Positions 2,212-11,727 of a stretch of DNA of 64,000 nucleotides are shown here, in pieces. Where the stretch lies: assembly GCA_905478925.1 (NCBI GenBank), contig CAJQKQ010000008.1, positions 1 through 64,000 of the forward strand. Reading direction: 5' to 3'. The position numbers and the translations under genes were made by a program. Numbering within the stretch: position 1 is the first letter of the stretch; each line of letters starts with the position of its first letter. This DNA comes from an uncultured Verrucomicrobiales bacterium (GTDB lineage: Bacteria; Verrucomicrobiota; Verrucomicrobiia; Verrucomicrobiales; Akkermansiaceae). Under the pieces are notes generated by a model that did not search any database, was not told the DNA's origin, and was given only the letters and a program-made list of their open reading frames with translations.

Positions 2212-3305
2212 GCAAGAAACGTTGGCTGGCCGCATGGGCGGATTCCGATACGAAACCAGCGATCTACCACTGCATTTCACGTGTGGTGGATCGGCGCTTC
2301 GCATTCGGGGACGAGGAGCGGGAGGCTTTCCGGATGTTCATGCGGATGTATGAGAATTTCAGCGGCTGCCGGGTGCTTTCCTACTGCGTGATGTCGAACC
2401 ATTTCCATCTCCTGCTGGAAGTCCCCCCGAAACCGGAGGACGGCATTTCCGATGAACTGCTCTTGCAAAGGCTCGGTGCCTTGCACAGCGAGAAATTTGT
2501 CGCGGGAGTTGCGGCGGAGTTGGCGGCAGCTCGAACCGAGGGAGGGCTTGTGGGCGGCAACGAGGCGCGGGTGCGGGAGATCCACGAACGCTTCACCTAC
2601 CGGATGGAGTCCCTGAGCCATTACATGCAGGGGCTGCTGATCCGATTCACCCGCTGGTTCAACCGAAAGCATAAGCGCTCGGGAACCCTGTGGGAGGAGC
2701 GTTTCAAGAGCGTCATCGTGGAAAGCGGAACGGCGGCGCGGACGCTGGCGGCCTACATCGACCTCAATCCCGTGCGGGCTGGCATGGTCGAAGATCCGGC
2801 GGAATATCGCTGGAGCGGCTACGGGGAGGCTGTCGGCGGAGGAAACAAGGGCAATGGGAAAAAGGCGCGGGAGGGACTCGTCAGGGCATACCTCTGCCAC
2901 AACGGAACGGGCTTCGACTCGGGAAAATGGCGGGATGTTTCGCGCGGATACCGGAGACTCCTTGGCATGGCGCTCGAGCGGAAGTCCGGCAGGTCAACGG
3001 CAGGAGACTCGACGAACGCTACGGAAGGGAAAAACCAAAACGAGGCTGAGACTCTTGAAAACGGGGAAACCGGACACGTGCTCAAGGAGCTTTCCGTCGC
3101 AAAATTTTTATCCCATCGTGTCAGGTATTTCACCGATGGGGCGGTCATCGGCAGCAGGGAGTTCGTCAACCATGCCTTTGCCACATCCAGGGAACGGTTT
3201 TCATCGAAACGAAAGGACGGGGCGCGGAAAATCCGAGATCTGCCGCCCGAGGCAAAAGGCCATCTCTGGAGTATGCGTGACCTGAGGGTGGAGGTATCCT
3301 CTTAA
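2208..3305 (+). mobile_element. REP-associated tyrosine transposase (RAYT, Y1_Tnp/TnpA_REP type)
   Basis: HUH-type MSNHFHLLLE motif; downstream Y-x-Q-GLLIRFTRWFNRKHKRSGTLWEERFKS typical of RAYTs. Confidence 0.88.
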
Positions 3306-5118: not shown

Positions 5119-5406
5119 ATGGAGATCATCGCGGTAGACAAGATCGAGAAGTTCGTTCGGAAGCATGCGAATGCCCGTGCGTCTCTTGCTTCCTGGCTAC
5201 TGATCGCCGAGGGTGCCGAGTGGACTTGCCCGCAGGATGTGAAGAACCACTTCCGCTCGGCAGACATCCTCTCGGGCAATCGCATCGTATTCAACATAGG
5301 AGGTAACAATTACCGATTGGTGGTTCTAGTCCGTTACAGGAATGGAATTCTCCTGATCCAGAAAGTAGGCACCCATGCGGAATACGACCGCTGGAAACTC
5401 GACTGA
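5119..5406 (+). CDS. higB: HigB-family toxin
   Basis: 95-aa; VKNHFRSADILSGNRIVFNIGGNNYRLVVLVRYRNGILLIQKVGTHAEYDRW is typical of the HigB toxin family. Confidence 0.85.
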   Translation: MEIIAVDKIEKFVRKHANARASLASWLLIAEGAEWTCPQDVKNHFRSADILSGNRIVFNIGGNNYRLVVLVRYRNGILLIQKVGTHAEYDRWKLD

Positions 5407-5422
5407 CCAACCCAACAGCATC

Positions 5423-6604
5423 ATGAAAATCATTAAAAACAGCAAAGACCACGAAGACGCACTCCGTCAGTTGGAGGAGCTGATGGTTGCCGACCCGGCA
5501 CCCGGCACCGACGATGATGAGAGGCTCCAACTTCTCGCCTTCCTGATCGCCGATTATGAGAAACGCATCGTGAAAATCCCACAGGCTTCCCCTGCAGAGG
5601 TGATCCGGTTCGTGATGGAACAGCGCGGCCTCAAGCAGCAGGAACTGGTGCAATACATCGGCTCAAAGGGGCGGGTGTCCGAGATCCTTTCCGGTAAGCG
5701 TGAGCTGACGCTCAAAATGATACGTGCCTTGCACGCAGGTCTGGATATCCCGTTCAAGGCTCTGGTTCAGGAGCAAGGATTTGAGGTGCCTGATAAGATT
5801 TTCGTCGAGGATTTTCCGTTCAATGAAATGCACAAGGCCGGGTATTTCCCCAGTGTTTTGAATGAGAAGGTAACGGCAATCAAAGATCGGGCGGAGGAGC
5901 TTCTCCATAGCTTTTTCTGTGGACGTGAAAATGATCCAATGATGGCTTTCAACAGGCAGAGCAAAGGCAAAGCTGAGATCGACAAGTTTGCGATCCATGC
6001 GTGGCGATGCCGCGTGTTGGACAGGGCGAAAAAGGCGAAGCGCGGCACCTACTCCCACGACGGAGTCAATCAGGCTCTGTTCTCACAGCTCACGGTATTG
6101 AGCGCCCTTGATACAGGACCGCTACTTGTCCGTGACCGACTCGCAGCGGCAGGTATTGCGGTTGTTTATGAACCCCACTTGGCAAAAACACGCCTGGACG
6201 GTGCGGCACTCTGGCATCCCGATGGATTCCCTGTGATCGGGCTTACCCTGCGGTATGACCGTCTGGATAACTTCTGGTTCACCCTCTTCCACGAACTCGG
6301 TCATGTTGCCCACGATCTGAACGTCAAGGCTATCGGCTTCATCGATACGGACATTGATTCGACATCAGAAAAGGAGGTTGAACAAAAGGCTGATACCTTT
6401 GCTCTGAACCAATTCATATCTCCCGATGACTGGGAGGAGCTGAAACACCTGACCACCGCCAAAGAAATTCGGAAAGCCGCCGAGACGTTGGCGATCAACC
6501 CGGCAATTCTTGCTGGCCGCCTGCGCAGGGAAGCGAAGGATTATGGGAGGCACCGCACTCTCGTAGGGCAGGGCGAGGTTCGTTCCCAATTCAATCTTCT
6601 GTGA
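5423..6604 (+). CDS. HigA-like HTH antitoxin fused to an ImmA/IrrE-type metallopeptidase domain
   Basis: HTH region (EQRGLKQQELVQYIGSKGRVSEILSGKRELTL) plus HExxH motif FHELGHVAHD in one ORF. Confidence 0.85.
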   Translation: MKIIKNSKDHEDALRQLEELMVADPAPGTDDDERLQLLAFLIADYEKRIVKIPQASPAEVIRFVMEQRGLKQQELVQYIGSKGRVSEILSGKRELTLKMIRALHAGLDIPFKALVQEQGFEVPDKIFVEDFPFNEMHKAGYFPSVLNEKVTAIKDRAEELLHSFFCGRENDPMMAFNRQSKGKAEIDKFAIHAWRCRVLDRAKKAKRGTYSHDGVNQALFSQLTVLSALDTGPLLVRDRLAAAGIAVVYEPHLAKTRLDGAALWHPDGFPVIGLTLRYDRLDNFWFTLFHELGHVAHDLNVKAIGFIDTDIDSTSEKEVEQKADTFALNQFISPDDWEELKHLTTAKEIRKAAETLAINPAILAGRLRREAKDYGRHRTLVGQGEVRSQFNLL

Positions 6605-6793: not shown

Positions 6794-7174
6794 CTATTCA
6801 CGGATTTCGCTCAACGTCCTCAGATCCACGCGCTGGTCAGCGTTCATTTCCAAAAGAAACACCGTGGTGCGACCAATATCTGTCAGGCCAATCACGTGGG
6901 CGGATTCAATTTTGAAATGCTCCACCCACAAATGTTGCCGGGGATGGAAAAGGGTGACCAGCGCATCGCCATCAGGATCCCGACTGGTGAGATTCGGCCC
7001 CTTGAATAAATTGCAGTGGTGGCATGCGAGAGCCAGATTCGAGAAGTCGTCTGTTCCTCGGTGCTGCCGGGCGATGATGTGCTCCACGTGATATGTGTGG
7101 AATGGTTCCCAATTCTGGTGGGTTCCGCAGTATTCGCAGACACCCTGCGCGCGGGTTACGACCATACTCTTCAC
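6794..7174 (-). CDS. HNH endonuclease
   Basis: CEYCGTHQ...YHVEHIIARQHRGTDDFSNLALACHHCNLFKG. Confidence 0.9.
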   Translation of the reverse strand: MKSMVVTRAQGVCEYCGTHQNWEPFHTYHVEHIIARQHRGTDDFSNLALACHHCNLFKGPNLTSRDPDGDALVTLFHPRQHLWVEHFKIESAHVIGLTDIGRTTVFLLEMNADQRVDLRTLSEIRE

Positions 7175-7999: not shown

Positions 8000-9325
8000 C
8001 TAGAATTCAGCGGCTTGGAGCATCCACTGCCAGGCAGGAAGGACTTGGATCGGGGGTGGGACGGCAGGGAATGGAAGCCGTGATTCGAGGGTTAGTATGA
8101 GTTGCTTGGCGCGGGGGTATTCGTTGGCGGCGTCTTGGAGGGCGCGGACTTCGCGGGCGAGGGTTCCGGGATCGTCGATGGATGTGCAGACTTGGATCAG
8201 CTCCTCGGAGTTGTCGGGATGGCGGGCGAGGAAATCGACTTCGTAGCCGTCCGGCGTTTTCACGTATGAGATGTCCGCTTGGCGGCGCTGAAGTTCGATG
8301 AAGACGGCGGTTTCGAGGAGGTGGCCGGTATTGCGTTTTCCGCTGCGGTCGAAAACGGGTATGAGTGCGGTATCGGCTGGGTAGATCTTGCGTGGATTCA
8401 CCTGGCGGCGTTTTTCTGAGTCGGTGGCGACGGGAATGGTGTGGAGGAGAAAGGCGTCCTCGATGTGGGAGAGGTAGGCGTAGAGGGTTTCGCGGCCGAC
8501 AGCGATGCCCTGGGATTTCATGTCAGCGGCGAATTTCGTGACCGAGAACAAGCCGGCAGGGCTGGAGAGTAGGCGGCGGACCAGCCAACGCAGGGCGGTG
8601 ACATTGGCGACTTGGTGGCGCTCGATCACATCGCGGAGGAGAAGTACGTCGATGTAGCCCTGCAAAAGCTGCCGCCTCTCGGGCGTGGGTAGACCCTGGG
8701 CTTCCGGGAAGCCGCCGATCTCCAGATAGCGGGCGAACTGGTGGTCGAGCGCCGTTGCCTTGCGGTTGGTGATGGCGGATGTTTTGGCAGGAATCTCCTT
8801 TTGATGATGGCGGAGAAATTCCTTAAAGCTGAAGGGATGGATGGTGATCTCCCAGGCTCTGCCGCGCATGGAGGTGGCGATCTCCCGGCTGAGGAGCTTG
8901 GCGGATGAACCGGATAGAAAAACCTCGTAGCCGGCGGTATCCAGTAGCCTCCGAATGAAAGTTTCCCAGCCGGGGACGATCTGGATCTCATCGAGAAACA
9001 GAGTGACTGGCTCGTTTTCCGGTTCGGGAAACAGGCGGAGGTGGATGTCCGCGATCAGGTGGAGCTGATCTGCGCGGATGTCGCCGAGACGTTCATCCTC
9101 GAAGTTGAAATAGATGAGGCGTGATGGGGTGCGGCCTGCAGCGATATAGTCGGCGCGGCATTGATAGAGGTAGCTGGTTTTTCCCGCTCGGCGCATCCCG
9201 ATGACGGTAATGGCTTTGCCTTTGATGGTAGGAAGGGCAGCGTCCCTACGCGTCAATACAGGTATGGGTGCGTCTGCAGCAGCGAGCACTTTGTTCTGGA
9301 TAATCTGGGATACTAGGACTTCCAT
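8000..9325 (-). CDS. AAA_14/DUF4143 ATP-binding protein
   Basis: Walker A GMRRAGKTS; LFLDEIQ; C-terminal DUF4143-type ALIPVFDRSGKRNTGHLLETAVFIELQRR. Confidence 0.92.
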   Translation of the reverse strand: MEVLVSQIIQNKVLAAADAPIPVLTRRDAALPTIKGKAITVIGMRRAGKTSYLYQCRADYIAAGRTPSRLIYFNFEDERLGDIRADQLHLIADIHLRLFPEPENEPVTLFLDEIQIVPGWETFIRRLLDTAGYEVFLSGSSAKLLSREIATSMRGRAWEITIHPFSFKEFLRHHQKEIPAKTSAITNRKATALDHQFARYLEIGGFPEAQGLPTPERRQLLQGYIDVLLLRDVIERHQVANVTALRWLVRRLLSSPAGLFSVTKFAADMKSQGIAVGRETLYAYLSHIEDAFLLHTIPVATDSEKRRQVNPRKIYPADTALIPVFDRSGKRNTGHLLETAVFIELQRRQADISYVKTPDGYEVDFLARHPDNSEELIQVCTSIDDPGTLAREVRALQDAANEYPRAKQLILTLESRLPFPAVPPPIQVLPAWQWMLQAAEF

Positions 9326-9366
9326 GAAGTCCTTTATATTAAAATAAAAGACTTCTGTGAAGTCTT
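9315..9366 (-). promoter_or_regulatory. Twin palindromes overlapping start and promoter region of the AAA_14 gene
   Basis: AGGACTTC-CAT-GAAGTCCT (9315-9333) and AAGACTTC-TGT-GAAGTCTT (9348-9366), centres 33 bp apart. Confidence 0.65.
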
Positions 9367-9493: not shown

Positions 9494-9515
9494 AACTCGA
9501 AATGAATTTCGAGTT
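9494..9515 (-). terminator. Palindrome downstream of metal efflux operon, possible terminator
   Basis: AACTCGAAAT-GA-ATTTCGAGTT, perfect 10-bp arms, 23 bp after the last gene. Confidence 0.5.

Positions 9516-9537: not shown

Positions 9538-11723
<2,186 letters not shown>

Positions 11724-11727
<4 letters not shown>

Follow-up and report, generated by a model that had tools for sequence, protein, structure and literature searches.

Two inverted repeats stand at the start of an AAA_14-DUF4143 ATPase gene in an uncultured Akkermansiaceae bacterium, the second with the start codon at its centre, and they raise the questions of whether they act as DNA or as RNA and of what reads them. The analysis covers a 64,000-nucleotide window of contig CAJQKQ010000008.1, the 3.8-Mb genome to which it belongs, and homologous loci elsewhere (numbered with the prefix L). 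The pair is probably a twin DNA operator, with the ATPase itself as its most likely binder and transcriptional autorepression as the outcome.

A defence-candidate ATPase gene with twin palindromes at its start

The gene product (Table 1) is a phage-defence candidate by its match to PDC-S01, which is reported as the fourth commonest defence across prokaryotes and which, like most such candidates, awaits experimental validation (PMC12988326). The literature searched holds no study of the regulation or operator of the AAA_14-DUF4143/PDC-S01 family, and nothing was found there on how PDC-S01 works. The distribution is patchy, with a match in 35 of 146 relatives and, phylum-wide at a stricter cut, in 51 of 388. 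Matches at L027, L030, L031, and their near-identical partners contain one in-frame stop; these genes may be pseudogenes, or the stop may fall at the edge of the match.

Table 1. Coordinates of the ATPase gene, its domains, and the elements around its start codon
Feature	Position	Strand	Remarks
AAA_14-DUF4143 ATPase gene, 441 aa	8000..9325	-	PADLOC PDC-S01 (E=3e-101); Pfam AAA_14 (E=2.7e-33) and DUF4143 (E=1.3e-16)
DUF4143 domain, residues 231-381	8183..8635	-	Pfam match overlaps the predicted winged helix
Predicted winged-helix DNA-binding region, residues 242-297	8435..8602	-	AlphaFold2 model, Foldseek, weak profile match
Predicted recognition helix, residues 278-290	8456..8494	-	Contains E279 and Y282
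AAA_14 ATPase domain, residues 36-171	8813..9220	-	Walker A GMRRAGKT, Walker B LFLDEIQ
Site 2, AGGACTTC-ATG-GAAGTCCT	9315..9333	-	Putative operator; centre 9324 on the start codon; right arm falls within codons 2-4
Start codon ATG	9323..9325	-	At the centre of site 2; ATG or GTG kept at the same place in homologs
-10-like hexamer TATAAA	9333..9338	-	5/6 matches; 17 bp after TTCACA
Spacer between sites, TTATTTTAATATAA	9347-9334	-	
Site 1, AAGACTTC-ACA-GAAGTCTT	9348..9366	-	Putative operator; centre 9357, -32 from the A of ATG
-35-like hexamer TTCACA	9356..9361	-	5/6 matches; within site 1, at its centre; best family-wide register

Pfam finds only AAA_14 and DUF4143 in the protein, with no match to the Orc1/Cdc6 family and no WYL domain of the kind present in BrxR and CapW. 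An AlphaFold2 model of moderate confidence (pLDDT 76; single-sequence prediction gives 41 only) builds residues 242-297 as three helices and a strand in a winged-helix-like arrangement, and a profile search weakly links residues 242-287 to the DNA-binding region of sigma-54 (E=0.005). The best Foldseek match is an archaeal Orc1/Cdc6 on origin DNA (2qby), with low full-length TM-scores of about 0.3, and this modelled likeness backs the type of domain only; Card1 is also among the matches. In DUF4143, residues E338, D364, and Q378 are invariant, as in PD-(D/E)XK-like folds, and the usual lysine after Q378 is absent (QVC), so the domain is possibly an inactive nuclease fold.

The letters and coordinates of both palindromes, and the 33-bp distance between their centres (9357 to 9324), are exactly as the earlier note on this locus gave them. 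The motif RGACTTCN3GAAGTCY occurs exactly twice in the window, at the twin sites, and five times with up to two mismatches (0.94 expected). Across the 3.8-Mb genome there are three copies of the core GACTTCN3GAAGTC, two of them being the twin sites, and the full pair at 33-bp spacing is present once, even with three mismatches permitted. The pair is therefore private to this gene, and neither the core nor the pair search of the genome reveals a scattered-site regulon.

Other elements in the window include a hairpin, AACTCGAAAT-TC-ATTTCGAGTT, at 9494-9515 after a heavy-metal P-type ATPase gene (9538-11727); it folds at z -3.6 and is absent from the terminator listing. By eye, an open reading frame at 5375-6604 is of the XRE-ImmA type: its N-terminal region resembles a helix-turn-helix, and it contains HELGH, a zinc-peptidase motif. 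A small one at 6794-7174, also judged by eye, has an HNH-endonuclease-like motif (VEHIIARQ...LACHHCN).

The spacing and dyads are conserved and the arms are not

Homologs with 83-44% identity to the query vary in the letters at their gene starts and share a constant layout. In a direct-repeat scan, at least 8/9 matches are found at a spacing of 33 in 11 of 29 loci, with 0-2 loci at every other spacing from 15 to 49. A combined score, which adds the two dyads to the direct repeat, was applied to 93 non-redundant upstream regions, and with ties counted the top-scoring spacing is 33 in 45 regions and 32 in 19, with no other spacing reaching more than 6. At spacing 32/33, preset from the query and with cut-offs picked afterwards, scores of at least 24 are reached in 39/93 regions and of at least 27 in 19/93, compared with 0-3 and 0 for dinucleotide shuffles; these 19 are the only scores of at least 27, with none at 28 other spacings. 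A generic promoter or composition effect is rejected, as neither the shuffles nor 228 control segments from the same loci reproduce a comparable spacing peak.

Alignment of 32 homologs at the start codon shows the same two centres, with complementarity peaking at -32 (69%) and +1 (57%) and lying near 25% at most other centres tried; information content is approximately zero upstream of -46. Some homologs, such as L005, L022, and L036, have no clear twin site. The layout recurs in homologous genes, and the palindromes are not missing from orthologous loci, an absence that the earlier note had named as refuting its reading.

The arms are alike at the two sites of one gene and unlike from gene to gene, with GWCY, GGAN, GACC, AGAGA, and CTGG types. 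Examples are AAGTCY in the query and in L048, where both dyads are very clear, AAGACC in L049, AAGGAK in L007, L020, and L043, and AAGAGA in L008. L054 stands for another group, with CTGGAAA/TTTCCAG at a spacing of 32. Several types occur within one genus, and arms follow the gene subfamily rather than being fixed per lineage. A search upstream of other DUF4143 genes with the literal motif RGACTTCNNNGAAGTCY, as once suggested, would overlook the homologous sites, since the arms vary in sequence. L008, a Desulfobacteraceae MAG, has at 2930-3020 two near-identical dyads 33 bp apart and a third half-site 22 bp farther downstream, at the start codon.

The sites are in register with a predicted promoter

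The two hexamers, TTCACA-N17-TATAAA, match the consensus at 10/12 positions, with 7 nt between TATAAA and the ATG. Across the 32 homologs the best sigma-70 register is -36, a 17-bp spacer, and -13, and the query has the same register. TAATAT, the -10-like hexamer proposed before between the sites, is displaced by TATAAA, which is a better match and slightly downstream. A simple promoter scan omits TATAAA, as it requires T at the sixth position. Judged from this register, transcription appears to start at about the A of the ATG, giving a leaderless mRNA, and most homologs have a pyrimidine run before the start in place of a Shine-Dalgarno sequence. In the query subfamily, site 1 thus apparently has the -35 hexamer at its centre, and site 2 has the start codon, where the leaderless mRNA would also begin. 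The proposal that dimers bind a pair of operators on a promoter with almost no leader is supported here, with spacing and dyads kept through changes of the arms and a register that fits leaderless transcription.

What binds the pair

Covariation may point towards the ATPase. When protein residues are correlated with operator arms, using the residual after overall protein distance is removed, residue 279 at the start of the predicted recognition helix ranks first of 293 variable columns in the scan that picked it out (r=0.51; next 0.39), and residue 282 ranks tenth. E279 occurs with AAG[TA]C arms and D279 with AAGG, and N279 in L025 and L046 accompanies AAGAG-like arms; with D and N pooled, the residue class matches the arm class in 29/32 members. 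Covariation at residue 279 supports recognition of the operator by its own ATPase and falls short of proof, because it reflects about three changes on the tree and only two well-supported independent pairs (sign test p 0.5).

The architecture alone does not identify the binder, and a host factor could also read paired dyads, so that the twin DNA operator would belong to some other regulator. We consider this unlikely. The genome has the full pair only once, leaving such a regulator no visible regulon; no neighbour gene is common to more than 2 of 58 loci; and the arms change with the gene subfamily, several types being held by one genus, and track, if weakly, the predicted recognition helix of the ATPase itself.

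A further step away is a reading in which the ATPase, similar to Orc1/Cdc6 in domain order, assembles on the pair as a loading or signalling site, with gene control secondary. The best structural match, bound as it is to origin DNA, speaks for such a platform, as does the extra half-site 22 bp on in L008, which shows that arrays can grow. However, the sites keep a fixed register on promoter elements, there is a single pair in the genome, and the structural likeness is at the level of domains only, making this quite improbable. Autorepression by the ATPase at a twin operator is the reading that we retain as the most likely.

DNA operator or mRNA hairpin

The palindromes could instead act in the transcript, with hairpins masking the start codon and the AGGA and so controlling translation. 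The RNA does fold, with 71 nt at -24.9 kcal/mol (z -6.8) and the start hairpin by itself at -10.5 kcal/mol (z -2.1), but folding is expected of any DNA palindrome. Asymmetries between the arms of site 2 in the 32 homologs comprise 53 A-C combinations, unpairable in RNA, versus 15 G-U, a bias to which the composition of the first codons contributes. The stem is thus not kept through RNA-compatible changes, and a start-codon riboregulator is rejected. RNA hairpins need neither an exact 33/32-bp spacing nor resemblance between sites, site 1 is not transcribed if the promoter is as placed, and most homologs lack a Shine-Dalgarno sequence before the start, having a pyrimidine run there. The mRNA hairpin that the earlier note offered as its second option is disfavoured by the A-C excess, the fixed spacing, and the likeness of the sites, and we regard it as very unlikely. 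A DNA operator is favoured because of the fixed spacing, the A-C mismatches in site 2, the lack of conserved neighbours, and the position of site 1 upstream of the likely transcript start.

Chance or mobile-element ends merit almost no credence: the patchy distribution in relatives does suggest horizontal transfer, but the sites lie only at the gene start rather than flanking the gene, and the shuffles and flank controls do not yield the signal.

A distant subfamily has a longer spacing

Relatives on plasmids and viral contigs, with ∼30% identity to the query, form a separate AAA_14-DUF4143 subfamily. In a set of 34 non-redundant members, 17 score best at a spacing of 40 and 7 at 39 (24/34, ties counted). 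A score of at least 30 is reached eight times, in six cases at 40 and once each at 39 and 34. The AAA_14 genes of L129, L132, L136, L155, L168, and L184 are preceded by inverted repeats paired at 39/40 bp. The sites overlap the -10 element in several members, and in many others both are upstream of the predicted -35, where they could serve activation or accompany a further, degenerate site. Spacings of 22, 32/33, and 39/40 would come close to two, three, and four turns of the helix. A DNA-level search of plasmids and a search of viral contigs with the single query protein gave no matches.

A proposed model of autorepression

We infer that the ATPase binds here, that it acts as a repressor, and that a signal releases it, as follows. 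One dimer, or a pair of winged-helix domains, would sit on each dyad of 19-21 bp, and with about three helical turns in the 33-bp spacing the two dyads would share one face of the DNA. Site 1 would lie over the -35 element and site 2 over the transcription start and start codon, with the -10 in between, and full occupancy would exclude RNA polymerase because the sites cover or enclose these elements. The most likely binder, the ATPase itself, would attach to its own promoter through its internal winged helix and repress its own gene, with release when it is drawn off or its nucleotide state shifts.

More speculatively, and in our view doubtful as a whole, PDC-S01 ATPases may be one-gene sense-and-respond units, each parked on a private twin operator by its internal winged helix. 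Recognition residues and operator would diversify jointly to give each lineage an orthogonal switch, and invasion would remove the ATPase from the operator and raise its own expression.

For a group reported among the commonest prokaryotic defence candidates, the conserved twin operator points to the predicted winged helix as a DNA-binding part. The homologs amount to a naturally varied set of proteins and operators that could be used to derive a recognition code or to obtain orthogonal repressors. The locus is also a case of a start codon as operator centre, such that codons 2-5 may be partly dictated by putative DNA binding.

Comparison with known systems

The domain order of Orc1/Cdc6, an ATPase followed by a winged helix, is shared by the query as predicted, but AAA_14 is another ATPase family, the query has DUF4143, and with low TM-scores the likeness is confined to domains. 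The mechanism most likely resembles that of known autorepressors of defence loci, BrxR and RptR, with the query a member of neither family. RptR represses restriction-modification islands, with autorepression through several short palindromes that overlap the -10 box (PMC12255303). Autorepression of a defence locus through palindromes is what we propose here too, although RptR is a small helical dimer that uses 6-bp palindromes in 9-bp direct repeats, and its protein and layout are unrelated to those of the query. BrxR, a WYL-family winged-helix regulator of defence islands, binds inverted repeats at its own promoter and represses its defence locus, and dyads are common upstream of its homologs (PMC9122601). 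Like it, the query has inverted repeats at its own promoter and a candidate defence locus, and its protein is predicted to include a winged helix. However, BrxR has regulation as its only role, is distinct from the effectors, and recognizes 11-bp repeats with a 5-bp gap, whereas here the sole gene is the ATPase candidate itself, and its two dyads keep a constant distance of 33 bp, with one of them centred on the start codon.
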